Shown here one piece after another: positions 12,556-63,697 of a stretch of DNA of 64,000 nt. Numbering within the stretch: the stretch's first letter is position 1; each line of letters begins with the position of its first letter. Source of the DNA: Pseudoclavibacter sp. AY1H1 (GTDB taxonomy: Bacteria; Actinomycetota; Actinomycetes; Actinomycetales; Microbacteriaceae); contig NZ_PSXX01000011.1 in the NCBI RefSeq assembly GCF_002931055.1, forward strand, positions 62,001 through 126,000, in the 5' to 3' direction. The position numbers and the translations under genes are program-made. The notes under the pieces are model-generated. The model did no database searches. It was not told the origin of the DNA and worked only from the letters and a program-made list of their open reading frames with translations.

Positions 12556-14358
12556 TTACTCCTCGAGGGGGCCGAGCGTGGCCTGCGCGACGAAGCGAGC
12601 GACGGGAGACGCCGTCACCTCGAGCTCGACGATCGCGACCGTGTTGACGCCGGCGCGGAGCACCGAGCCCGGCACGTAGAGCGTCTGCTGCGGTCCGCTG
12701 CGCCAATAGCGCCCGAGCAGGAACCCGTTCACCAGGGCGTACCCCTTGCCCCACTCGGCGGTGTCGAGGTAGAGGTCGCTCGGCGCTTCGAGCTCGAACT
12801 CGCCGCGAAGCCCGGTGAGCCCGAGCGGCGTCTCGGGATGAGCCAGTGGCGCGGATGCATCGGCCGCAGCAAGAGCAGCACCACCGGCGCCGGGTGCGCT
12901 GGTGAGCGCCGAGCCGATCGCGATTCCGGCCTCTGCGACGTCGATGGGCGTCGCCGTCCACCCTTCGAGGGGAGCCCCGTCGAGGAGCGGCGTGCCGATG
13001 ATGCCCTTTTCCTCGCCGATGCGCTCGGCGTAGTTGACGCGACCCTGCTCCTCCACGAGCACGCGCAGCCGCGTCCCGGCGGGCACGACGATCGACGTCT
13101 CGTGGAGGGTGCGCGATAGCGTGCCGAAGGGGACGCCGTCGATGGAGAGCCACGCGAAGTCGCGCACGTCCTCGAACTCCAGCAGGCGGGGTGCGGATGC
13201 GCGCGGCAGCTCGGTCTCGTAGGCGACCAGGGCGCTCAGATGCTGCAGGGCATCGAAGGTCGGGGGCGTCGTGTGGCGTTCGGGACTGACGGGCGGGAGC
13301 CACGCATCCGGAGCCACGACGGAGAGCGGCACCTCGAACTCGGAAGCTGGGACCGCGAGCGCGGGGGTCTCCGCCGGCACATCGGCGTACTTCGCGATGA
13401 CGTCCCTGAACGCGAAGAACTTCGGGGTGGGGTTCCCTGCCTCGTCGAGCGGCGCGTCGTAGTCGTAGGAGGTCGTGATGGGCAGGTACCTGCCCTTGTG
13501 GTTCGCCCCGTTGGTGAGGCCGAAGTTGGTGCCACCGTGGACCATGTAGAAGTTCACGGAGGCGCCTGCGGCGAGCAGCGCGTCGAGCTCGCGAGCCGCA
13601 TCCTCGACGCTCGTCGTGTGATGGAAGGCGCCCCACCAGTCGAACCAGCCGTCCCAGAACTCGGCGCACATGAGCGGGCCGGTCGGCTGGTGGCGCCGCA
13701 GGGTGGCGAGGCGCTCCTCGGCGCGCGACCCGAACGAGCCGGTGAGGTGCACGCCGTCGACGCTGCCGTCGCTCAGCATCTGGTCGGTGGGCTGATCGAT
13801 CGTCGTGAGCGGCACCGTGATGCCAGCCTCGCGGGTGACCTCGACGAGCCGCTCGAGGTAGGCAGTGTCGTTGCCGTAGGCGCCGTACTCGTTCTCGATC
13901 TGCACGAGCACCACGGGGCCGCCGACGTCGATCTGCCGCGGCGCGACGATGTCGTAGACGCGCTGCAGGTAGGTCTCGACCTCGTGCAGGTAGCTAGGTT
14001 CCGAGCGTCGCAGCCCCACCCCGGGCATCGCGGTGAGCCACGTCGGGAGCCCGCCGTTGTGCCATTCCGCGCAGATGTAGGGGCCTGGGCGCACGATGGC
14101 GTGCATCCCCTCGGCCGCGATCAGGTCGAGGAACCGGCCGAGGTCGTTCCAGCCGGTCGCATCCCACTCCCCCTTGCGGGGCTCGTGGGCGTTCCAGGCG
14201 ACGTAGGTCTCGATCGTGTTGAGGCCCATGAGCTTGGCCTTGTGGATGCGGTCGGCCCACTGCTCGGGATGCACGCGGAAGTAGTGCAGCGCCCCGGAGA
14301 GCACGCGGTGGGGTTCGCCGTCGAGGAGGAAGTGCTCTTCGCCGATCTCGAAGGTCAT
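12556..14358 (-). CDS. Beta-galactosidase, glycoside hydrolase family 35
   Basis: 600 aa with the GH35 fold. N-terminal FLLDGEPHRVLSGALHYFRV and NTIETYVAWNAHEP are family signatures; the acid/base Glu is in VQIENEYGAYG and the nucleophile Glu in CAEFWDGWFDWWG. C-terminal beta-sandwich domains follow (DLYLDTAEWGKGYALVNGFL). ATG 14358 has AGGAG upstream. There is no signal peptide, so it should cleave beta-galactosides inside the cell. It is the last gene of the minus-strand run kduD-kdgA-kdgK-GH35 (67 nt after kdgK), which suggests it handles galactose side-chains co-imported with uronate-containing oligomers such as pectin fragments; this is inference. Confidence 0.92.
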   Translation of the reverse strand: MTFEIGEEHFLLDGEPHRVLSGALHYFRVHPEQWADRIHKAKLMGLNTIETYVAWNAHEPRKGEWDATGWNDLGRFLDLIAAEGMHAIVRPGPYICAEWHNGGLPTWLTAMPGVGLRRSEPSYLHEVETYLQRVYDIVAPRQIDVGGPVVLVQIENEYGAYGNDTAYLERLVEVTREAGITVPLTTIDQPTDQMLSDGSVDGVHLTGSFGSRAEERLATLRRHQPTGPLMCAEFWDGWFDWWGAFHHTTSVEDAARELDALLAAGASVNFYMVHGGTNFGLTNGANHKGRYLPITTSYDYDAPLDEAGNPTPKFFAFRDVIAKYADVPAETPALAVPASEFEVPLSVVAPDAWLPPVSPERHTTPPTFDALQHLSALVAYETELPRASAPRLLEFEDVRDFAWLSIDGVPFGTLSRTLHETSIVVPAGTRLRVLVEEQGRVNYAERIGEEKGIIGTPLLDGAPLEGWTATPIDVAEAGIAIGSALTSAPGAGGAALAAADASAPLAHPETPLGLTGLRGEFELEAPSDLYLDTAEWGKGYALVNGFLLGRYWRSGPQQTLYVPGSVLRAGVNTVAIVELEVTASPVARFVAQATLGPLEE

Positions 14359-14425
14359 GTGAGCAGACTCCTGTCTTCTGTCTTCGCTGACATCGGGGGG
14401 GGGTGTTGAGAGGAACCGGGGTGGA

Positions 14426-15373
14426 TCAGCGTTGGACGGCGTCGCCGACGCCGTCCACGAGCTCGCGCAGGTCACCCCAGCTCGGCAGCGACTCCCAGTC
14501 GCCGTCGCTGCGGCAGGCGCTGGCTCCGCACGCGGCGGCCGTCAGCATGCGCTGCTCGAGGGGCGCCCCACGCGTGAGCTCGACGAGGTAGCCGGCCGCG
14601 AAGGCATCGCCGGCGCCGACCGTGTCGACGACGTCGACCGCGAAGGCGGGCACCTCGGCCTCGAGGTCGCCGTCGACGCCGGACGCGCCGTGCTCGCCGC
14701 GCTTGATGACGGCCTGCCGGGGACCGAGGGCCTGCAGGGCGCGGGCCTGCTCGATCGGGGATGCCTCGCCGACGAGCATGGCGGCCTCGTCGTCTCCGGC
14801 GAAGACGATGTCGCTGAGCGCGGCGAGCTCGCGGTAGCGGGGAGCCGCGGCCTCGGCCGACCACAGCTTGCTGCGGTGGTTGACGTCGAACGACACGATC
14901 ACGCCGTGTTCGCGAGCGAGGCGGACGGCGCTGAGCACCGTCTCGGCGGCGCTGTCGCTGAGGGCGAGGCTGATGCCCGTGACGTGCAGGACCTGGGCGC
15001 CCACAATGGCCTCGCTTGGGACGTCGGCCGGCGTGATGCGGCTGCCGGCGAGTCCGCCGCGGTAGTAGGTGACGCGGCTGCGGCCCGGACGGGGCCGGTC
15101 CTTGAGCATGATTGCGGTCGGTGCATCCGCGTCGACCGTCTCGTGCAGCTGCACCTGTTCGGCCCTGAGGGCGCGGAGGATGCGCCTGCCGACGGCGTCA
15201 TCGCCGACCCGGCCGATCCACGCGGCCTCGACGCCGAGTCTGGCGGCGGCGATCGCGACGTTGCTCTCTGCACCGCCGAAGCTCATCTCGGCGTCGGACT
15301 GCAGGTCGAAGCCGCCGGCCCGGCGCGCGATCACCAGCCCGAGCGCCTCCCCGATCGTGACGATGGCGCTCAC
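14426..15373 (-). CDS. kdgK: 2-keto-3-deoxygluconate kinase (PfkB family)
   Basis: 315 aa; phosphorylates KDG to KDPG, the substrate of the aldolase encoded just upstream. PfkB features: MSFGGAESNVAIAAARLG near the N-terminus and the catalytic DTVGAGDAFAAGY near the C-terminus. SRVTYYRGGLAGSRI is typical of the KDG-kinase branch (YYR). The GTG start at 15373 overlaps the aldolase stop (GTGA). Gene order kduD, kdgA, kdgK supports the assignment over fructokinase. Confidence 0.88.
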   Translation of the reverse strand: MSAIVTIGEALGLVIARRAGGFDLQSDAEMSFGGAESNVAIAAARLGVEAAWIGRVGDDAVGRRILRALRAEQVQLHETVDADAPTAIMLKDRPRPGRSRVTYYRGGLAGSRITPADVPSEAIVGAQVLHVTGISLALSDSAAETVLSAVRLAREHGVIVSFDVNHRSKLWSAEAAAPRYRELAALSDIVFAGDDEAAMLVGEASPIEQARALQALGPRQAVIKRGEHGASGVDGDLEAEVPAFAVDVVDTVGAGDAFAAGYLVELTRGAPLEQRMLTAAACGASACRSDGDWESLPSWGDLRELVDGVGDAVQR

Positions 15374-16011
15374 GTGCGGCCGACCTTGGCGGCGCTCACG
15401 CGGGTCGCGATGTCGGCCGCCGCGCGGGCTGCCTCGGCGACCGCGTCTGCACCCTGGTCGAGCAGCTTCGAGCTGCCGAGCCAGCTTCCGCTCGCGGCGA
15501 AGACCGCCGGGTGCTCGAGGTGCTCGGCGAGGTTGGCGATGCTGATGCCGCCGCTCGGCATGAACGTGATGCCGCGGAACACGGAGGCATACGTGGTGAG
15601 CAAGGACAGCCCGCCGAAGTTGCCCGCCGGGAAGAGCTTGAGCTGCGACAGCCCGAGGTCGCGGGCCGCCGTGATGTCGCTCGGCGTGAGCGTTCCCGGG
15701 AGGATCGGAACGTCTGCGTGCTGCGCGACTCGGACGACCTCCGCCGACAGTCCGGGCGAGACGAGGAACTGCGCCCCCGCATCCAGCGCCTGCTTGGCCT
15801 GCTCGGTGTCGAGCACGGTGCCAGCACCCACGATGAGGTCGGGGCGCCCCGCGATGTGGCGCAGTGCATCCAGTGCCCCGTCGCCGCGCAGTGCGATCTC
15901 GACGATGCCGATGCCGCCCGCGACGAGACCGTCGGCGAGCGCCTCGGCCTGCGCCTGCGTGCTCGGCGTTGAGAGGGGAACGACGGAGTGGCCCTCGAAC
16001 AGGGCGCTCAT
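15370..16011 (-). CDS. kdgA: 2-keto-3-deoxy-6-phosphogluconate aldolase
   Basis: 213 aa class I aldolase of the KDPG/KHG family; splits KDPG to pyruvate and glyceraldehyde-3-phosphate. The family Glu lies in GIGIVEIALRG, followed by VGAGTVLD and FLVSPGL, and the Schiff-base Lys is in LSQLKLFPAGN. FMPSGGIS forms the phosphate site. ATG 16011 overlaps the kduD stop (ATGA); an ATG 12 nt further up is less likely because of that coupling. Length is normal for the family. Confidence 0.92.
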   Translation of the reverse strand: MSALFEGHSVVPLSTPSTQAQAEALADGLVAGGIGIVEIALRGDGALDALRHIAGRPDLIVGAGTVLDTEQAKQALDAGAQFLVSPGLSAEVVRVAQHADVPILPGTLTPSDITAARDLGLSQLKLFPAGNFGGLSLLTTYASVFRGITFMPSGGISIANLAEHLEHPAVFAASGSWLGSSKLLDQGADAVAEAARAAADIATRVSAAKVGRT

Positions 16012-55511: not shown

Positions 55512-55634
55512 TCAGCCCTGCCGGGCTTTCATGCGCGGGTTCTTCTTGTTGATGACGAAGACGCGGCCGCGACGCCGTACGATCTGCGCACCAGGGACCT
55601 TCTTGAGCGCCTTGAGCGAGTTGCGAACTTTCAC
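55512..55634 (-). CDS. rpmJ: 50S ribosomal protein bL36, cysteine-free form
   Basis: 40 aa, starting at GTG 55634 with AGAAAGG upstream. The sequence begins [12 protein letters not shown], contains [19 protein letters not shown] and ends RMKARQG, the usual bL36 pattern. It has no cysteine, so it is the zinc-independent (C-minus) paralogue that replaces the zinc-binding bL36 when zinc is short. Such genes are commonly under Zur control, and a Zur-like palindrome lies 15 nt upstream of the start. Confidence 0.92.
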
Positions 55635-55677: not shown

Positions 55678-56754
55678 ATGACCTCCGATCGACCAAGCGC
55701 CCAGACCGTCACCAGCTCGCTCGGCCTGACACTCGTCAGCGGGCTCGAGACATCGGGCCGACAGCTCGTCACCGCGCTCATGTGCGGAGAACCGAGCGGA
55801 CCGACACCCGTCACGGAGTTCGGCGACGAGCAGACGAACGCCCTGGAACTCGGCGTCGACATCGCCGACGACCTCCTCCGGCAAGCCGCGGACGGACGCA
55901 GGGGCAACATCATCGTCGAGCTCTCCTCGGACGCCGAGACGCAGAGCGTCGGCCTGGCCATAGACCACGTCATCGCCGAGGCACGCAGCCACCCCTCCGC
56001 GCCGGACACCGCCGACGTCACCGTCGGGGCCAGAGAGTTCATCACCGTCGCGAGCATCGGCGACATCCGACGCCTCCTCTTCCAAGAAGGCACGCCGCTA
56101 CCCGAGGATGCCAACACCTCCGCCACGCTCGCCGAGCAGCTCGAGTTCGCCACCATCGTCGTGCTCACCGGAGCCGACGCACACCCCTCAGGCCTCATCA
56201 GCGAGACCTGCACGCTCATCCAGCAGCTCAACCCGACGGCGGTGATCACCACCCCGGCCGCGGCCTCGGATCTCGGCAGGCACCTCAGACCGATCCGACC
56301 AGGGCTCGCACACCAGCTCGCCTCGACCGCCGGATGGATGCTGCGCCTCGACGACCGCATGCACTTCCCGCCAGCCCGCGGCCACATCGACTGCACCGTC
56401 TTCACCGAGCCACGACCGTTCCACCCGGAGCGCCTCGCCGCCGGTCTCGCGAACCTCACCCCCGAGCAGGTCGGGCTCATCACCAGATCACGCGGCCACT
56501 TCCGCCTCGCCAACAGGACAGATCACGTCGGCGACTGGTCGAGCACGGGAGGCAACATCCAGCTCGGGGCATCCGGCGTCACGAGCGCTGATCCCGAAGC
56601 GCCCCTCGGCACCTCGATCGCCGTCTTCGGGCGCCAGCTCCGCACCGACGCCATCGCCAGCCTGCTCCACGAGTGCGCCCTCACCGACGAGGAGCTCATC
56701 GCGGGCCCCAGTGCCTGGTGCGACTACGCCGACCCGTTCCCCGGGTGGGAATGA
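55678..56754 (+). CDS. CobW/YciC-like protein with degenerate GTPase motifs
   Basis: 358 aa. The C-terminal half matches the CobW C-terminal domain (VFTEPRPFHPERLAAGL, then SRGHFRLANRTDHVGDWSS), and the middle EFATIVVLTGA...QQLNPTAVI follows the CobW pattern EFADVVVLNK...LNPxA. The N-terminal P-loop position reads TLVSGLETSGRQLVTALM instead of GFLGAGKTT, and the family CxCC metal motif is absent, so GTP binding and metal insertion as in normal CobW are doubtful. It may be a regulatory or storage relative. No ribosome site; TAGACT ends 6 nt before the ATG, suggesting a leaderless mRNA. Divergent from cysteine-free rpmJ over a Zur-like box. Confidence 0.8.
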   Translation: MTSDRPSAQTVTSSLGLTLVSGLETSGRQLVTALMCGEPSGPTPVTEFGDEQTNALELGVDIADDLLRQAADGRRGNIIVELSSDAETQSVGLAIDHVIAEARSHPSAPDTADVTVGAREFITVASIGDIRRLLFQEGTPLPEDANTSATLAEQLEFATIVVLTGADAHPSGLISETCTLIQQLNPTAVITTPAAASDLGRHLRPIRPGLAHQLASTAGWMLRLDDRMHFPPARGHIDCTVFTEPRPFHPERLAAGLANLTPEQVGLITRSRGHFRLANRTDHVGDWSSTGGNIQLGASGVTSADPEAPLGTSIAVFGRQLRTDAIASLLHECALTDEELIAGPSAWCDYADPFPGWE

Positions 56755-56796: not shown

Positions 56797-58527
56797 TCAG
56801 CGCGCGGAGAGCGGGAGGTGGATCTCGAACGTCGTGCCGCTGCCGACCGTGCTGGACGCCTCGAGGCGCCCACGGTGCGCCTTCACGATCGCGAGCGTGA
56901 TGTTCAGGCCGAGACCCACACCGGGGACCGCCTGCTTCGTGGCCGTCGTCGCACGGAAGAACTTCGTGAAGAGGCGGTGCATCTCCTCCTCGGGAATGCC
57001 CATGCCGGTGTCCGAGACGTAGACCACGACCTCGTTGCCGTCACGCCGCACCCCGACACGGACGACGCCGCCCTCCGGAGTGAACTTCACCGCGTTCGAG
57101 ATCAGATTGTCGATCGCCTGCCCGAGCCGCATCGCGTCCCCGGAGAGGACGACGTCCTCGCCGCCGGCCTCGCCGACCAACTCGACCGACGCCTGCGCGG
57201 CAGTCGGCAGGGCCGTCTCCAGGGAAAGCCGCACGACCTCCCCCAGACGCACCGGCGAGAACTCCATCGGCACCTTCCCGGCATCGACCTGCGCGACGAA
57301 GAGCAGGTCGCCGACCAGCGACAGCAGGCGGTTCGCATTGCGCTCCGCGACGTCCAGGTAGTGGCGCTGCTCGTCGTTCAGCGGGCCGCTCTCCTCATCG
57401 CGGGCGAGCTCGAGGTAACCGAGGATCGAGCTCAGCGGCGTGCGCAGCTCGTGCGAGATGGTGCCCACGAACTCGTCCTTGAGCCGAGACGCCTCGTTGA
57501 CCGGCGTCATGTCGTAGGCGATGAAGATGTGGCCGACCGTCTCACCATCCGGCGTCTTGCGAGGAGCACACGTCATGAGCGCCGGCATGGGTTCGTCCTC
57601 GGCGCGCACGAGCTCGACCAGCGTGCCGGCCTGCTCGTTGCATCCCGCGGTCTCGACCAGACGCCGCAGCAGACGGTTTCCGTCCTCCTCGTCATCGCCC
57701 TCGCCGCGGATCGCGGACGCGGAGTCCTCCGAGAGGAAGTCCGTCACATTTCGTTTGCCGACGACAGCAGAGGACGACGGACCGAGGAGGTTGCGCGCCC
57801 CTGGCCCCCACGCCACGATCGTCCCGTCGAGCTCCGTCACGATGGCGATCTCGTGGACCGCCGCGTTCCAGACGCTGAGGTTGAAGGCCTCCGAGGCGCG
57901 CAGCTCACGGGTGGCCACCTCTCGCGCCTTCTCGCTCGCCTGCACCTCCAGCAGGCGTCGCTCGCGCTCCTCGGCATAGAGCCTGGCGCTCTCCACCTGC
58001 ACCCTGGCACGGTGGGACATCTCGTTGATGACGCTCGCGATGACCGCGAACACCAGCGGCGTGAAGACGATCCGCAGGATCTGCGGATCATTCCACGGCG
58101 CCGTCCCCATGAGGTAGGGAAGCGCGAGCGTCACCAGCAGCGTGCCGATGGCACACCAGATCGCCCGACGCCCGGGCTCGGTCGCGATGAAGATCAGCGG
58201 CAGGAGGACGAGGGACGTGAACATCGACAGCGCCCCACCGGTTCCCACGCGGAAGAGGCCAAGGGCGAGCATGGAAGCCATGGGGAGGATCAGCCGCGTG
58301 CACGGCGGCGCTGTGTCCCACGGAACCAGGAAGGCAGCTCCCGCGAGGGCGACGACGATCACCACCCCCGTCCACGCCGGAACGGGCTCCGTGATCAGGG
58401 CCCCGGGAACGAGGAGGATGGCCCCGAGCGCTATCAGCAGGCCGAGCACCGACGCGAGCTGACGGATGGCGGGCGACGTCGTGTCGACCGTGAACTGGCC
58501 GAATGGACTCTTCACCGAGACACTCAT
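56797..58527 (-). CDS. Sensor histidine kinase with membrane input and PAS domain
   Basis: 576 aa. About six N-terminal hydrophobic segments (LASVLGLLIALGAILLV through LRIVFTPLVFAVIASVI), a coiled-coil-like linker (ARLYAEERERRLLEVQASEK), a PAS-like domain (AVHEIAIVTELDGTIVAWGP), then the H-box VGTISHELRTPLSSILGYLE and ATPase boxes NLISNAVKFTPEGG, VSDTGMGI and GVGLGLNITLAIV. ATG 58527 overlaps the response-regulator stop (ATGA). It is the last gene of an eight-gene operon with a GT2 synthase, so it probably senses membrane or envelope state and signals to the two receivers just upstream. Confidence 0.93.
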   Translation of the reverse strand: MSVSVKSPFGQFTVDTTSPAIRQLASVLGLLIALGAILLVPGALITEPVPAWTGVVIVVALAGAAFLVPWDTAPPCTRLILPMASMLALGLFRVGTGGALSMFTSLVLLPLIFIATEPGRRAIWCAIGTLLVTLALPYLMGTAPWNDPQILRIVFTPLVFAVIASVINEMSHRARVQVESARLYAEERERRLLEVQASEKAREVATRELRASEAFNLSVWNAAVHEIAIVTELDGTIVAWGPGARNLLGPSSSAVVGKRNVTDFLSEDSASAIRGEGDDEEDGNRLLRRLVETAGCNEQAGTLVELVRAEDEPMPALMTCAPRKTPDGETVGHIFIAYDMTPVNEASRLKDEFVGTISHELRTPLSSILGYLELARDEESGPLNDEQRHYLDVAERNANRLLSLVGDLLFVAQVDAGKVPMEFSPVRLGEVVRLSLETALPTAAQASVELVGEAGGEDVVLSGDAMRLGQAIDNLISNAVKFTPEGGVVRVGVRRDGNEVVVYVSDTGMGIPEEEMHRLFTKFFRATTATKQAVPGVGLGLNITLAIVKAHRGRLEASSTVGSGTTFEIHLPLSAR

Positions 58528-58892
58528 GACTGGACCTCTCTGAGCCTCGCGACGAGGCTGGCCAGCGAGAAGGGCTTCGTCAGATAGTCATCCGCCCCCG
58601 CCGCCTCACCAGCCTCCTGCGCCACGACATTGGCATTGGCCGACACGATGATCGCGTGCGCCCGAACGTCGCCCTCCTGGGCGCGCACACGCGCGAGCAC
58701 CTCGAGCCCCGACAGCCCAGGCATTGAGACGTCCAGGAGCAGCAGATCCGGCACCGACTCGAGGGCGGCCCGCAGCGCGCTCACCCCATCGCCGTACGAG
58801 CCCACGATCTCGAAGCCTGCCCGCCGCGCGGCAGTCTCGAGCAGGAAGCGGATGTCGTCGTCGTCATCCGCGATCACCACCCTCGCCGCCAT
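58524..58892 (-). CDS. Single-domain response regulator
   Basis: 122 aa, receiver domain only: acidic pocket VVIADDDDDIRFL, phosphoacceptor Asp in LLLLDVSMPGLSG, switch Ser in IIVSANAN, Lys in YLTKPFSLASL. There is no output domain, so it acts by protein contact or as a phosphorelay step. ATG 58892 shares one base with the upstream receiver stop (TGATG), and its own stop overlaps the kinase start. Confidence 0.93.
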   Translation of the reverse strand: MAARVVIADDDDDIRFLLETAARRAGFEIVGSYGDGVSALRAALESVPDLLLLDVSMPGLSGLEVLARVRAQEGDVRAHAIIVSANANVVAQEAGEAAGADDYLTKPFSLASLVARLREVQS

Positions 58893-59251
58893 CAGGTGCG
58901 CCTCGCACGCAGACGCGCGACAAGCCCCTTGACCTGCTTGCCCGTGAACGGCTTCGGGAGCACATCGTCCGAGCTCGGGTAGTCGGTCTCGTCGAGCACC
59001 GAGGAGATGACGATCGCCACCTCGGGAACCAGCTCGCAGATCCGCTCGCGCACCTCCCAGCCGCTCCCGACCCCCAGCAGCAGATCGATCACCGCGACGT
59101 CCGGGACCTCCACGCGGATGCTCGCAAGGGCCTCGTCGAGCGTTGCCGCCGACTTCGCGGCGCACCCCGCCTTCCGGAACTGCGTGCGCAGCAGCTCGCG
59201 CTGGTCCGCATTGTCGTCCACGATCAGCACCCGCAACTGGTCACCGCTCAC
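58892..59251 (-). CDS. Single-domain response regulator (second)
   Basis: 119 aa receiver: VLIVDDNADQRELL, phosphoacceptor Asp in VAVIDLLLGVGSG, SS switch region VAIVISSV and Lys in DVLPKPFTGKQVKG. No output domain. GTG 59251 overlaps the stop of the 46-aa membrane protein gene (GTGA). Two adjacent stand-alone receivers next to one kinase suggest branching or a phosphate sink. Confidence 0.92.
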   Translation of the reverse strand: MSGDQLRVLIVDDNADQRELLRTQFRKAGCAAKSAATLDEALASIRVEVPDVAVIDLLLGVGSGWEVRERICELVPEVAIVISSVLDETDYPSSDDVLPKPFTGKQVKGLVARLRARRT

Positions 59252-59388
59252 AGGAAGAACACCTCTCTCACGACAACCAGCACTGCGACACCCACAAACG
59301 CCAGCGTCGCCTGCAGGTACAGGCGGTTCTCCGCTCTGGCGTCCCGCTTGATCTCCTCGGTCAGACGGCGTTCACCCAACTCGCTCAT
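59248..59388 (-). CDS. 46-aa single-pass membrane protein
   Basis: Starts at ATG 59388, overlapping the GT2 stop (ATGA), and its stop overlaps the next GTG (GTGA). Hydrophilic half MSELGERRLTEEIKRDA, then one helix LQATLAFVGVAVLVVVREV and FFL at the end. Phase-locked overlaps on both sides make a real gene likely despite its size. It may be a small accessory subunit of the GT2 synthase; no family is recognised. Confidence 0.75.
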   Translation of the reverse strand: MSELGERRLTEEIKRDARAENRLYLQATLAFVGVAVLVVVREVFFL

Positions 59389-60884
59389 GCCAGCACGGCT
59401 CCGCTCTTCTCCGTCTTGTCCCACGTCATCGCGGCGCCACGCGCCTCCTTGATGTAGGAGTCGAACGTCACCGCGCAGAGAATCGGCCCGTAGCCGATGA
59501 GGTAGACGAGGATGGGATTCACCACCCGGCCGAACTTCGTCGAGTCGATCAGCTTCATGCCCCACGCCGCGACCATGCACAGCGAGATCCACGCGAAGAT
59601 CGCCAGGTTCCACGCGTCGTATCCGCCCTCGGTGAGCGTCAGACCGAACATCGCCGGGATGCGCTGCTCGAACAGGCCGGGGAAGAACGCCGCCAGCAGC
59701 ACGACCATCGAGATCAGCCCGGGGAAGAGCAAGACCTCACGCCACGCCACCCTGCCCACCTTCGGATCGAGCTGTGCGGCGAACAGCATGATGTACACGT
59801 ATGCGCAGCCCACCACGATCCAGAGCGCGCGGAACACGAGCATGGCAAGCGGCGAATCCATCAGGTACAAGCCGATGAGGCCCACCGACGAGAGCAGCAT
59901 CAGCACCGGCAGCAGGAACACGCTGAACCAGAAGAGGCCGAACGAGATCGTGCCGAGCTTGTGCTCCTTCGACGGGCGGAACCAGAGGTGGCTGTACCGC
60001 TTCGTCAGCTGCACGTTGCCCCTGGCCCAGCGCAGCCGCTGCTTCCAGAGATCCCCGACGTGACGCGGCTCCTCGGCCAGCACGACAGCGTGCGGCTCGA
60101 ACACCACCTTGCGGCCAGAGAGCTGCGTCTCGAACGTGGTGACCGTGTCCTCCGCCAGCGAGCTCGTGTCAATCTGCCCGCCGATGGCAAGCAGGTTCTC
60201 GCGCGAATGCAGCTGCGCACCTCCAGCGAGGCAGGCCAGAGCTCCGAGCACATTCTGCGCACGCCGGCTGCCGACCTGCGACAGGACGTACTCGAACGCG
60301 ATGAACCGCGTCAGGTAGTTCTTGCGCAGGCTGCCCTCGCTGATGTACGCCGTGACCGACCCCACCTCGGGGTCGGCGAGATGCCTCGTCATCTTCCGCA
60401 TCGAATCCGGAAGGTAGATGACGTCGGCGTCCATGATGAGCAGCGCCTCCATCCAGTCCTCGCTGAGCACGCGACGGAGCCCGTGGTTCAAGGTGTGCGC
60501 CTTGCCCTCCCCGCCCTTCTCGCGACGAAGGTGGAAGACCCGGCCCGGGTACCGACCGGCACGCTCGAGGACGACGTCAGGGGTGTCGTCCGTCGACGCG
60601 TCGTCGACGACGTACACCCTGAGCCGCTCCGGCGGGTACTCCAGGGCCATGAGCCGGTCGATGGACCCGCCGATCACCGCCCCCTCGTTCCACGCCGGGA
60701 CGACGACGGCCACGTTCGGCAGGTACGGCGCAGCCTTCTCGTAGTGGTTGAAACGAGCGTGCAGCGGCACGATGAGGAACTGGTAGGCCATCGTGAAGGC
60801 CGGTATAGCGCCGATGGCGACGAACACGACGAAGATCGTCGCCAGCACCGCACCGCCGATATCGAGCCAGGCGTCGGCGCTCAC
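59385..60884 (-). CDS. Processive family 2 glycosyltransferase (cellulose/hyaluronan synthase-like)
   Basis: 499 aa from GTG 60884. An N-terminal helix, then the GT2 domain with VAVVVPAWNEGAVIGGSI, VYVVDDASTDDTPDV, the DxD-type site LIMDADVIYLPDS, EDTVTTF and QRLRWARGN (the QxxRW motif of processive synthases). Several membrane segments follow (LFWFSVFLLPVLMLLSSVGL, VLLFPGLISMVVLLAAFFPG). Together these predict an inner-membrane synthase that extrudes a beta-linked polymer or builds a glycolipid. The start overlaps the PHP gene stop (GTGA). The substrate is not evident; a PIG-L domain in the same operon hints at an N-acetylated sugar. Confidence 0.92.
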   Translation of the reverse strand: MSADAWLDIGGAVLATIFVVFVAIGAIPAFTMAYQFLIVPLHARFNHYEKAAPYLPNVAVVVPAWNEGAVIGGSIDRLMALEYPPERLRVYVVDDASTDDTPDVVLERAGRYPGRVFHLRREKGGEGKAHTLNHGLRRVLSEDWMEALLIMDADVIYLPDSMRKMTRHLADPEVGSVTAYISEGSLRKNYLTRFIAFEYVLSQVGSRRAQNVLGALACLAGGAQLHSRENLLAIGGQIDTSSLAEDTVTTFETQLSGRKVVFEPHAVVLAEEPRHVGDLWKQRLRWARGNVQLTKRYSHLWFRPSKEHKLGTISFGLFWFSVFLLPVLMLLSSVGLIGLYLMDSPLAMLVFRALWIVVGCAYVYIMLFAAQLDPKVGRVAWREVLLFPGLISMVVLLAAFFPGLFEQRIPAMFGLTLTEGGYDAWNLAIFAWISLCMVAAWGMKLIDSTKFGRVVNPILVYLIGYGPILCAVTFDSYIKEARGAAMTWDKTEKSGAVLA

Positions 60885-61660
60885 GCGAGCCCCCCGGCGT
60901 CCGACGAACCGAACGCGGGCACCTCCGCCAGCAGCTCGCGAACCCGGGCATAGACGCCGACGTCAGCAGCACGGTGGCTATCCGTCGAGGCGACCAGCGT
61001 CGCCCCCTCCGAGAGAGCAGCCTCGATCGCCCGCGAACTCGGGCATACCCACTTCTCGTTCACCTCGATGGAGGTTCCCGTCTCACGAGCGGCAGACGCC
61101 CACGCCGAGAGGTGCTCCGCAGAGAGCTGAGACTCTTCGATGCCCACCTTGGGAAGGATCGAGAAGGGATGCGCCAGCTGCGCACCGCCACCGGCCGTCC
61201 GCATCGCGCCGATCGTCGCCCCGATCAGCAGATCGAGTGCATCCTCGACCGCAAGACCAGCCGCCAGACGCTCCCGCGTCTCACGCGGCGACCACGGGCC
61301 ATCCGGACCAGGGAACTGATGATCGGCGATGACGATGCCATCCACCCCTCCGGCCCCCACCCGCAAGTCGCTCGGCACGTCGAGCGTGCCCCGCGCATCC
61401 ATGATCTTCGCCTCGACGCCGATCACCAGCTCGACCCCGGTGGTGCGCCTCGCCGCGACGACCGCAGCCACGAAGTCCGGCACCCAGGCCGTGCTGCCGC
61501 GCACGTGATCGGTCGCCCGCATCGTCACCAGGCCGCGCTGTTCGGCGGCACGGACGTTCGCCGAGATGGGACTCTCCGCGTCGTCCGAGAAATCGGAATG
61601 GACATGCCAGTCGCCGAGCAGCAGCGCTTCGAGACCGGGACCCGCCTTCGTGTCAGTCAC
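60881..61660 (-). CDS. PHP-domain phosphoesterase
   Basis: 259 aa. Metal-binding motifs of the PHP superfamily in order: GDWHVHSDFSDDAESP, MRATDHVRG, GVEAKIMD, VIADHQF, AQLAHPFS, EVNEKWVCP and the final ASTDSHRAADVGV. All the expected His, Asp and Glu are there, so it should be an active metal-dependent phosphatase or phosphodiesterase in the cytoplasm. GTG 61660 overlaps the ATP-grasp stop by 8 nt; the longer open frame upstream is inside that gene. Target unknown; a phosphorylated sugar or lipid intermediate of the GT2 pathway is a reasonable guess. Confidence 0.88.
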   Translation of the reverse strand: MTDTKAGPGLEALLLGDWHVHSDFSDDAESPISANVRAAEQRGLVTMRATDHVRGSTAWVPDFVAAVVAARRTTGVELVIGVEAKIMDARGTLDVPSDLRVGAGGVDGIVIADHQFPGPDGPWSPRETRERLAAGLAVEDALDLLIGATIGAMRTAGGGAQLAHPFSILPKVGIEESQLSAEHLSAWASAARETGTSIEVNEKWVCPSSRAIEAALSEGATLVASTDSHRAADVGVYARVRELLAEVPAFGSSDAGGLA

Positions 61661-62615
61661 GAGCGAGAACTTCGTCAAAGGGCAGGAACACATCCTCGAG
61701 GAAGCGGACATTCGCGACCTCACGGAACTCGACGCGCGACGGAACCGGCCGTTCGAGCGCGATATCCACCGCAAGCGACGGCATATCGACACCGGCCGCG
61801 ATCGTCAACGGCATGGCGCCAGAGAACCTCGGGTTGATCTCCAGCAGCGCGGGGCGACCATCGGTGCTGTACCGCAGCTGCACGTTCGCCACCCCCACGA
61901 GCCCAGCCGCACGGGCGCAGGCGGCAGCCGTCTCCTCGAGCTCAGCGCGGTGCACCGTCCTGCCGGCGACCGCCACGCCCGAATCGACGCGAGCACGCAG
62001 ACGGGGAACCGCCGCGATCGCCTCGCCGTCGGCACCCATCACGACGTCCACGGAGAACTCGTCGCCCGGGAGGTTCTCCTGGATGAGCAGGGCAGCATCC
62101 CGCGTCTTCGCCTCGAGCTCCTCCCGCGAATGCACGAGGTGCACGCCGCGAGAGCCCGCACCGCTTCGGGGCTTCACGATGACCGGGAACACCCAGTCGC
62201 GGGCGATGCCCTCGTCGTCGAGCAGAGCCGTGGCCGGCACCAGTGCGTGCGGCTCGCACGCCTGCACCAGCAGCCACTTGTCGAGGCACGTCGCGAGCGC
62301 CTCCGCGGAGGGCGCGGCGAGCACCGCGCCGAGCTCCGCGCGTCGCGCCGCGAGCGGCGGGAGCTCCACGTCGACGGTCGACACGAGCACATCGATGCCG
62401 TCTGCGGCGACCAGGTCGATCAGCGCATCGCAGAAGCCTTCGGAGAGGCCAGGAGGAACGAGCCTCCGGTGCGCCTCATCCACGAGGTACAGGCCACTCG
62501 CCCAGCCGTCCATATCGGCGGCGAACACCTCGAGGTCATCTCGACCGAGGAGAGAGCGGATGACCGCCACCCCAGCCGGCCCGCCGGCACCCGTGACCAG
62601 GACTCGAAATCTCAT
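61653..62615 (-). CDS. ATP-grasp ligase (CarB-like)
   Basis: 320 aa. A pre-ATP-grasp Rossmann-like start (RVLVTGAGGPAGVAVIRSLL), the ATP-binding loop VFPVIVKPRSGAGSRGVHLV, QENLPGDEFSVDVVM and the metal-binding LLEINPRFSGAMPLT. ATP-grasp enzymes join a carboxylate to an amine or similar group through an acyl-phosphate. It lies between the PIG-L fusion and the PHP gene, with ATGA overlap to the former. It could form an amide on the sugar amine exposed by the deacetylase; this is inference from gene order only. Confidence 0.9.
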   Translation of the reverse strand: MRFRVLVTGAGGPAGVAVIRSLLGRDDLEVFAADMDGWASGLYLVDEAHRRLVPPGLSEGFCDALIDLVAADGIDVLVSTVDVELPPLAARRAELGAVLAAPSAEALATCLDKWLLVQACEPHALVPATALLDDEGIARDWVFPVIVKPRSGAGSRGVHLVHSREELEAKTRDAALLIQENLPGDEFSVDVVMGADGEAIAAVPRLRARVDSGVAVAGRTVHRAELEETAAACARAAGLVGVANVQLRYSTDGRPALLEINPRFSGAMPLTIAAGVDMPSLAVDIALERPVPSRVEFREVANVRFLEDVFLPFDEVLARD

Positions 62616-63697
62616 GCGCGGTTCTTCTTCTCAGTCTCAGTCGTGCCCAGATTATGCACCGTCGCGAACTCACCGTCGCCGCGCTCCGCAGTGATGCTAC
62701 TCGCATCCCGGATCACCTCGAGCGGCTCGCTGTACGTGCCAGTGCCGAAGCGCGACCAGTACCGTGCGGCGGAGAGCACGAAGTCCGGCGCCAGGTAGTC
62801 GCGGATGTCGGCCTGCGACGCGAATTGCGCAAGCAGACCGAGCTTCATATCCGTGAATCCGTCGACCGTCACGAACCGCGTCGGACGGAAGTCGATCGTG
62901 GACGACGGGCTCTGATAACAGGCCACACTCGCCACCCTGCGACTCGCGACGAGCGTCGCCTCGTGCACGGCACGGTGGTCTTGATGCCGGTCATTCCGAG
63001 AATGCGTGTAGACGATCGTCGGGTCGGTCTCCGCGATCACCCGCTCGATGATGCCCACCGTCGGGTCATTGTTCGGAATGGCGGTATCCGTGAGGTCCTC
63101 GAGAAAGAGACGAGCACCGAGCGACTCCGCAGAGGCAAGCGACTCGTGCTGCCGATCCGCAGCGTCACCGCCGCGGCCGCCGCGAGACAACGTCAGGATC
63201 ACGATCGAATCTCCGGCTGCCGCGTGCGCCGCCAGCGTGCCGCCGACGCCGATCTCCACGTCGTCCGGATGCGCGCCGATCGCGAGGACCCGACGGCGCG
63301 GGCTGCGCGCCCGCTTGACCCTCGCCGCCTCGACGAGACGCTGCACCGTGCTCACCAGCACCGCCCCAGGGATGGGCTTCTGCAGGAACTCGTCGGCGCG
63401 ATCGCGCAGGGCGCGAACCGCGTACTCGACGGAGGCGTGTGCCGTCATGACGACGACGGGCAGATCTGGCTTGATCTCGCGCAGACTCCCGAGAACCTCG
63501 AGTCCGTTCGCCCCCGGCAGCTCGACATCGGTGAGCACCAGGTCGGGGTTGAAGTCATTCACGTGCATCAGCACCGCAACCGCGTCCCGAAGCACGCGGA
63601 CCTCGCACCCGAGGCGCCTCCGGAGCACCGTCTCCAGGAACTCGGCGACGTCGCCATCGTCTTCGATGATGAGAATGCGGTACGAAGCCTCTGGCAT
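62612..63697 (-). CDS. Response-regulator receiver fused to PIG-L/LmbE-type deacetylase
   Basis: 361 aa. Residues about 1-125 are a receiver domain: LIIEDDGDVAEFL, phosphoacceptor Asp in LVLTDVELPGANG, VVMTAHAS and the Lys in FLQKPIPG. Residues about 140-345 are a PIG-L domain: LAIGAHPDDVEIGVGGTL with the zinc-binding His-Pro-Asp-Asp, then LSRGGRGGDAADR and THSRNDRHQDHRAVHEA with the second zinc ligand. PIG-L enzymes N-deacetylate GlcNAc-containing substrates. The fusion predicts phosphorylation-controlled deacetylation. ATG 63697 has no ribosome site; TACTGT (63706-63711, minus) lies 8 nt before it, so the mRNA may be leaderless. First gene of the eight-gene operon. Confidence 0.9.
   Translation of the reverse strand: MPEASYRILIIEDDGDVAEFLETVLRRRLGCEVRVLRDAVAVLMHVNDFNPDLVLTDVELPGANGLEVLGSLREIKPDLPVVVMTAHASVEYAVRALRDRADEFLQKPIPGAVLVSTVQRLVEAARVKRARSPRRRVLAIGAHPDDVEIGVGGTLAAHAAAGDSIVILTLSRGGRGGDAADRQHESLASAESLGARLFLEDLTDTAIPNNDPTVGIIERVIAETDPTIVYTHSRNDRHQDHRAVHEATLVASRRVASVACYQSPSSTIDFRPTRFVTVDGFTDMKLGLLAQFASQADIRDYLAPDFVLSAARYWSRFGTGTYSEPLEVIRDASSITAERGDGEFATVHNLGTTETEKKNRA

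Follow-up and report, generated by a model that had tools for sequence, protein, structure and literature searches.

In this study, we analyzed an operon of Pseudoclavibacter sp. AY1H1 that lies in a stretch of 64,000 nucleotides (contig NZ_PSXX01000011.1, positions 62,001 to 126,000 of the forward strand), which is called the window here. Eight genes on the minus strand, from 63697 to 56797, encode a receiver domain fused to a PIG-L de-N-acetylase, an ATP-grasp ligase, a PHP-domain phosphoesterase, a membrane synthase of glycosyltransferase family 2 (GT2), a small membrane protein, two single-domain receivers and a sensor kinase (Table 1). All reading frames were confirmed at these places, and the overlap that an earlier sequence-only reading had described at every junction of this operon was read off the sequence. 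It is well supported that the receiver-PIG-L, ATP-grasp, PHP and GT2 genes are a conserved and functionally linked unit, which we call the cassette. The proteins scored above the Pfam cut-offs for Response_reg and PIG-L, ATP-grasp (best ATPgrasp_Ter), PHP, GT2, two single Response_reg domains, and PAS/HisKA/HATPase. Among the best 25 NCBIfam models listed per protein, none of the eight proteins reached a curated cut-off.

Table 1. Genes and gene junctions of the operon, in window coordinates (aa, amino acids)
Feature	Position	Strand	Basis or overlap
Receiver-PIG-L fusion, 361 aa	62612..63697	-	CheY-like receiver (D57, K107) and de-N-acetylase domain (AHPDDVE, H238, H241)
ATP-grasp ligase, 320 aa, ATPgrasp_Ter / PRK12767-like	61653..62615	-	Pfam, NCBIfam, conserved residues
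PHP-domain phosphoesterase, 259 aa	60881..61660	-	Pfam, conserved residues
Membrane GT2 synthase, 499 aa	59385..60884	-	DD, DxD, ED and QRxRW motifs; C-terminal WxKTxK motif
One-helix membrane protein, 46 aa	59248..59388	-	Helix judged by eye
Single-domain receiver A, 119 aa	58892..59251	-	Response_reg 51.6 bits
Single-domain receiver B, 122 aa	58524..58892	-	Response_reg 84.2 bits
Membrane sensor kinase, 576 aa	56797..58527	-	Hydrophobic N-terminus, PAS, HisKA, HATPase_c
PIG-L/ATP-grasp junction	62612-62615	-	ATGA
ATP-grasp/PHP junction	61653-61660	-	8 nt overlap
PHP/GT2 junction	60881-60884	-	GTGA
GT2/46-aa junction	59385-59388	-	ATGA
46-aa/receiver A junction	59248-59251	-	GTGA
Receiver A/receiver B junction	58892	-	TGATG, 1 nt
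Receiver B/kinase junction	58524-58527	-	ATGA

With the receiver-PIG-L protein as the only query, we collected the best 80 loci (L numbers) of at least 564 relatives, a set that favours Actinomycetota. A gene was counted wherever it lay in the locus; the short loci L086-L100 and L116-L128 did not enter the counts. Profile searches found ATP-grasp, PHP and GT2 genes all present in 49 of the 80 loci. The partial sets were ATP-grasp and GT2 (seven loci), ATP-grasp and PHP (five), ATP-grasp alone (three), GT2 alone (two) and PHP alone (two), and 12 loci had no partner enzyme. Among these 31 incomplete loci, six (L017, L062, L067, L070, L073, L080) have less than 3 kb of sequence behind PIG-L, and the frames of L084 are broken. 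The order receiver-PIG-L, ATP-grasp, PHP, GT2 recurs in Actinomycetota, and 47 of the 49 full cassettes keep a single order and strand, the exceptions being L074 and L081. Rearranged or shortened cassettes were found in Gammaproteobacteria, Burkholderiales, Gemmatimonadota, Myxococcota and Bacteroidetes; PHP is divergent in L074 and L079, and ATP-grasp is inverted in L078. The 46-residue protein, which matched no family in the Pfam and NCBIfam scans, has translated matches in 23/80 loci, for example in Microbacterium, Leucobacter and Agrococcus, and also in L112.

The order of the window's organism was sampled without starting from PIG-L, with E-value cut-offs of 1e-100 for GT2, 1e-60 for PIG-L, and 1e-45 for PHP and ATP-grasp. 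Among 297 genomes, GT2 was found in 14 and PHP in the same 14. ATP-grasp was found in these 14 and in G358, G397 and G560, and the PIG-L family in these 14 and in G353, G397, G555, G558, G620 and G627. All four genes lay within about 5 kb in 14/14 GT2 genomes, so the neighbourhood co-occurrence that the sequence-only reading had put forward as a check was borne out, and the homologues are not scattered. A sample of 346 genomes from the phylum contained 2 with GT2; the same 2 have receiver-PIG-L, adjacent to it. Genomes of one genus are not independent, and no probability was put on the co-occurrence. The distribution of the cassette is patchy and close to all-or-none. Some loci had forms of their own: L049 carries two tandem GT2 synthase genes within one cassette (12990-16008); in L026 (Blastococcus atacamensis), just a 39-residue GT2 match follows PHP (12677-12793), and the gene may be broken or misassembled; and L056, L057, L068, L069 and L106 are a second locus type, in which the strand opposite to receiver-PIG-L and a kinase encodes a distant GT2 (143-161 bits) and an ATP-grasp protein (89-104 bits).

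The overlap of the junctions is also seen in the relatives. A start codon overlapping the preceding stop was available at 61/69 junctions from PIG-L to ATP-grasp, 59/63 from ATP-grasp to PHP, and 46/55 from PHP to GT2. Among conserved same-strand neighbour pairs outside the cassette, such an overlap was available in 31/196, or in 31/131 when only pairs within 100 nt were taken. The count takes the start codon closest to the stop and is thereby biased towards overlap in the cassette and the comparison pairs alike; a good part of the loci are drawn from the same genera. The overlap of the cassette junctions is more than chance.

In some genomes, the cassette is split. The GT2-less cassettes L008, L014, L016 and L040 have a GT2 on another contig of the same genome (E 1e-231 or better), where it stands without cassette neighbours. 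The idea that the GT2-less cassettes of Leifsonia and Cellulomonas algicola break the link was therefore rejected. The genome search for GT2, from which the Myxococcota loci L079 and L082 were left out, gave a match in 5/9 genomes, the fifth being that of L058. In this Bacteroidetes genome, a separate cassette (L133) holds ATP-grasp, PHP and GT2; in the genome of L075, the ATP-grasp and PHP genes are found on a different contig (L134). At E 1e-5, PHP was not found in 5/7 searched genomes, namely those of Kangiella (L060), Marinicella (L083), a member of the Burkholderiales (L078), L068 and L069. The strictly fixed product ratio that had been read from the overlaps is too strong a claim, because GT2 lies on a separate contig in four genomes, PHP was not found in three proteobacterial genomes, and several loci have receiver-PIG-L and a kinase without the other enzymes. 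Low-molecular-weight tyrosine-phosphatase-like genes lie near PHP-less cassettes (L060:14784-15338, L070:6925-7404, L076:6910-7398, L077:7885-8349 and L083:14875-15366), those of L077 and L083 confirmed by Pfam and the others by clustering or sequence. It is possible, as an idea only, that such a phosphatase replaces PHP in Gammaproteobacteria; its position and strand vary.

The fused protein scored 90 bits with Response_reg and 84 bits with PIG-L. Its enzyme part belongs to the PIG-L de-N-acetylase superfamily by the Pfam cut-off and the AHPDD ... HxxH residues, and the acidic pocket, the phospho-Asp and the Lys, together with the enzyme fused to the receiver, are those of a response regulator with enzymatic output. 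In an alignment of 33 sequences from part of the loci, including the window protein, AHPDDVE, H238, H241, D57 and K107 were invariant (33/33). The model of the fusion had a predicted local distance difference test score (pLDDT) of 90, and the closest folds to its PIG-L part were diacetylchitobiose deacetylases, BC1534, TT1542 and BshB, and also glycopeptide deacetylases.

Some relatives have lost the receiver or kept it in a degenerate form. L102-L104 carry the same cassette with a degenerate receiver: no lysine is left in the 125 residues ahead of the PIG-L motif (3/3), Gly replaces E12, and one alignment places Ala or Pro at D57; D13 of the acidic pocket is kept in all three. In L101, PIG-L has no receiver. 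Among intact fusions flanked by 6 kb or more on each side, 59/64 had a kinase or receiver gene within 7 kb (79/89 unfiltered). No such gene lay within 7 kb in L101-L104 (0/4), nor in L109-L111, which are receiver-less PIG-L loci without the full cassette. It is shown by computation that receiver decay goes with missing neighbouring signalling genes. Gene neighbourhood and residue loss point to what may be a real phospho-control of PIG-L.

In a rival reading, the receiver-PIG-L protein would be mainly a regulator, and the surrounding enzymes would be a separate polysaccharide operon that uses the fusion as its signalling partner. We consider this improbable: it would suit the loci in which receiver-PIG-L stands with a kinase and without the other enzymes (L020, L046, L048, L051, L105 and L107), but the PIG-L active site is invariant throughout the alignment, and PIG-L is still the first gene of the cassette in L101-L104, where the receiver is gone or degenerate.

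A kinase of the window's family (at least 150 bits) was found in the locus of 46/49 full cassettes. Within 1.5 kb behind GT2, these 49 cassettes had two single receivers in 7 cases, as in the window, one in 20 and none in 22. The signalling tail differs between loci, and the window's exact tail of two receivers and then the kinase is atypical. Five gammaproteobacterial loci were searched for H-NOX genes by reading their open reading frames. In three of them (L060:9267-9812, L077:1673-2224 and L083:9218-9829), a gene for the nitric-oxide sensor H-NOX (PF07700) and a hybrid kinase are divergent from the cassette; a regulator gene lies behind in L060 and L083, the two whose contig extends far enough. 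The available part of PMC8738867, for example, treats H-NOX proteins as regulators of biofilm behaviour. The arrangement resembles H-NOX and hybrid-kinase biofilm signalling. It was seen only in these three loci, and the kinase in the operon of the window is a PAS membrane kinase. The most straightforward interpretation is that each lineage couples a sensor of its own to the fused receiver. Clustering of the open reading frames of the loci for further conserved neighbours gave mostly genus-level synteny, with TasA/SipW-like genes in addition and, in Gammaproteobacteria, the hybrid kinase and tyrosine phosphatase as added neighbours.

The active sites of the cassette enzymes are intact. The ATP-grasp protein is a member of its ligase family by the Pfam cut-off and conserved nucleotide and metal residues, and K113, K148, E259 and N261 are invariant in 26/26 aligned sequences. 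The PHP protein is a phosphoesterase by the Pfam cut-off and metal-ligand residues; H21, D26, H52, E83, H114, H164, D227 and H229 are invariant in 20/20, and H19 is Gln in 2/20. Both alignments were made from part of the loci. For GT2, the window protein was aligned with 29 sequences from 28 loci. D94, D95, D152, D154, E245, D246 and QRxRW were invariant in 30/30, and W488, K490, T491 and K493 near the C-terminus in 29/29 rows reaching that far. This WxKTxK motif may correspond to the gating loop of hyaluronan- and cellulose-type synthases.

The GT2 model (pLDDT 90.7) bears on whether the product is a polymer or a lipid. It matched the Chlorella virus hyaluronan synthase (8snc; Z 25.3, 379 residues), BcsA (Z 24.4, 372 residues) and the Xenopus hyaluronan synthase (Z 23.0), and the top structural match was the mannosyltransferase PcManGT, which scored higher (Z 30.7, 341 residues) and is not known to be a polymerase. 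Four gammaproteobacterial loci (L060, L076, L077 and L083) extend far enough to show what follows GT2, and in each it is a tetratricopeptide repeat (TPR) protein of 414-452 residues. All four TPR proteins end in Phe and have a barrel-like C-terminus; a C-terminal Phe is a usual end of outer-membrane barrels. Weak matches were obtained to PgaA with L076, L077 and L083 and to DUF2490 with L077; L077 and L083 also matched Slam-type TPR. TasA/camelysin-like genes lie near the cassette in 8/13 Cellulomonas loci carrying ATP-grasp, with SipW-like peptidases in 6 of these 8, and directly behind the kinase in 4/6 Blastococcus loci; the family names TasA and SipW rest on one representative each. Examples are L045:18048-19524, with a SipW-like peptidase, and L012:6557-7267. 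The TPR/barrel-like partner, the GT2 fold and the TasA-like neighbours favour an exported matrix polymer. The sequence-only reading had proposed a glycan or glycolipid system tied to two-component genes; the tie agrees with the conserved cassette, and between the two products the fold and the TPR/barrel-like partner lean to the polymer.

The other possible product is a signal-controlled aminoacyl-glycolipid. In such a pathway, GT2 would put an N-acetylhexosamine on a membrane lipid, receiver-PIG-L would deacetylate it at the cytosolic face, ATP-grasp would amidate the freed amine, and PHP would take off a phosphate. Human PIG-L acts in this way on N-acetylglucosaminyl phosphatidylinositol (GlcNAc-PI). 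PIG-L and ATP-grasp of the cassette presumably work in the cytosol, where a lipid-linked precursor would be accessible to them before its export, and no polymer-export gene was seen beside the window's operon. The rank of PcManGT as the highest match would also keep the glycolipid alive and may speak against a polymer. We nevertheless consider the glycolipid rather unlikely: the resemblance of GT2 to hyaluronan and cellulose synthases extends over about 370-380 residues, the C-terminal motif is conserved, and a TPR protein with a barrel-like C-terminus stands behind GT2 in four Gram-negative loci.

The cassette was compared with known systems. As in the poly-N-acetylglucosamine (PNAG) systems PgaABCD and IcaADBC, there are a membrane GT2 synthase, a de-N-acetylase, a small membrane partner and, in Gram-negatives, a TPR/barrel-like partner, and PgaC/IcaA is the best NCBIfam match of the cassette GT2. 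Unlike in these systems, the GT2 scored 114.3 bits against a PgaC_IcaA cut-off of 422.3 (TIGR03937), the deacetylase is a PIG-L protein fused to a receiver, and ATP-grasp and PHP are added. PgaB and IcaB are exported NodB-type deacetylases. No NodB-type deacetylase is among the eight operon proteins, to which this search was confined; their sole deacetylase family is PIG-L (PF02585). The GT2 has the QxxRW-type motif of hyaluronan and cellulose synthases and resembles them in its predicted fold, although the mannosyltransferase is the higher match; unlike them, it has different partner genes, and the identity in the structural alignments is below 20%. It scored below the cellulose synthase cut-offs (CelA, 64.2 of 699.1 bits; PRK11498, 33.2 of 992). 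The hopanoid glucosamine pathway (HpnI/HpnK) also combines a membrane GT2 with a deacetylase; the cassette GT2 lies below the HpnI cut-off (45.9 of 310 bits), and HpnK is not a PIG-L protein.

Mycothiol and bacillithiol biosynthesis share glycosyl transfer, PIG-L deacetylation and amide ligation with the cassette, whose PIG-L part resembles BshB. A soluble small-molecule cofactor pathway analogous to these would use the same reaction types, with dephosphorylation by PHP as the fourth. There is only a small chance of this, since the GT2 of the cassette is a membrane synthase rather than a soluble GT4, the PIG-L part stays below the cut-off of the bacillithiol deacetylase BshB1 (76.2 of 182.5 bits), and the Gram-negative loci have a TPR/barrel partner. 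Unlike these pathways, the cassette also has an ATP-grasp ligase and a phospho-receiver. No description of the cassette was found in the open-licence full-text literature, which is weak evidence that covers open-licence papers only and agrees with the statement of the sequence-only reading that it knew no system with this exact set. Passages in PMC13390465, PMC3684757, PMC2824669 and PMC12419801 describe other clusters.

The flanks of the window's operon show it to be self-contained. A gap of 144 bp, a DUF3180 gene, folate genes and ftsH lie upstream, and a convergent CobW-type gene lies downstream. The host genome (25 contigs, about 4.2 Mb) has a single strong match to the GT2, and the likeness of its cassette to those of the other loci suggests kinship with Microbacteriaceae. 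Beside the gene with the CobW C-terminal domain (55678-56754, plus strand), a ribosomal protein L36 without cysteines is encoded at 55512-55634 on the minus strand; we take this pair to have the usual look of a zinc-starvation island.

With evenly divided confidence, we propose that the cassette is a synthase-dependent exopolymer factory with an amino-sugar product and a post-translational phospho-switch in the fused receiver. The sensor kinase would phosphorylate the receivers, including the one fused to PIG-L, which the joint loss of receiver and signalling genes supports. The state of the receiver would then switch the fused de-N-acetylase, which would convert an N-acetylhexosamine unit in the cytosol, be it a donor, a primer or lipid-linked, to a free amine; we infer this deacetylation from the family, the fold and the intact active site. 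ATP-grasp may join a carboxylate, perhaps an amino acid, to the freed amine, and this is the weakest step. PHP may strip phosphate from an intermediate or regulate the synthase. Finally, the membrane GT2 would polymerise and extrude the product; in Gram-negatives, its passage through the outer membrane would be the task of the TPR protein with the barrel-like C-terminus. We think it most likely that this yields a matrix or surface polymer and that the two-component signal sets its chemistry in addition to its amount.

Several points weigh against this proposal. A cytosolic deacetylase cannot reach an extruded polymer and must therefore act on a precursor. GalB, a hydratase, ranks 22 among the fold matches of the PIG-L part, so the fold alone leaves the reaction unfixed. 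In L103 and L104, an Asp occupies the preceding alignment column, and whether D57 is lost turns on the register. Neither a kinase nor a receiver gene lies within 7 kb of the intact receivers of L058, L061, L071, L079 and L081, all of which have full flanks. Of the five gammaproteobacterial loci searched for H-NOX, L070 and L076 lack it and have only the kinase and regulator. The genome searches gave no PHP for L060, L078 and L083. TasA as a general partner was rejected for the window's genome, in which there is no TasA-like gene. No GT2 was found at E 1e-20 in the genomes of L020, L046, L048 and L051, of which L046 and L048 are small metagenome bins, nor at E 1e-100 in those of L105 and L107. 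Since receiver-PIG-L and the kinase occur in these six loci without ATP-grasp, PHP and GT2, the switch may have another substrate.

We also suggest, tentatively and with less confidence than the exopolymer factory itself, that the cassette could represent a widespread undescribed class of exopolymers. Their amino-sugar units would be N-modified in the cytosol before polymerisation (first de-N-acetylated, then amidated by ATP-grasp with an amino acid or another acid), and the deacetylase would be switched by direct phosphorylation. Lineages would plug in different sensors, such as PAS membrane kinases or H-NOX nitric-oxide kinases, and the receiver would decay where the kinase is absent.

Two-component systems usually act via transcription or second messengers. 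In the cassette, the receiver is fused to an enzyme that would determine how a surface glycan is charged and substituted. The cassette is found in actinobacteria and in distant phyla, and it could explain fast remodelling of the surface or matrix. The intact, degenerate and receiver-less versions of one enzyme are natural controls, and the cassette is a defined place to seek amide-linked substituents on bacterial exopolymers.

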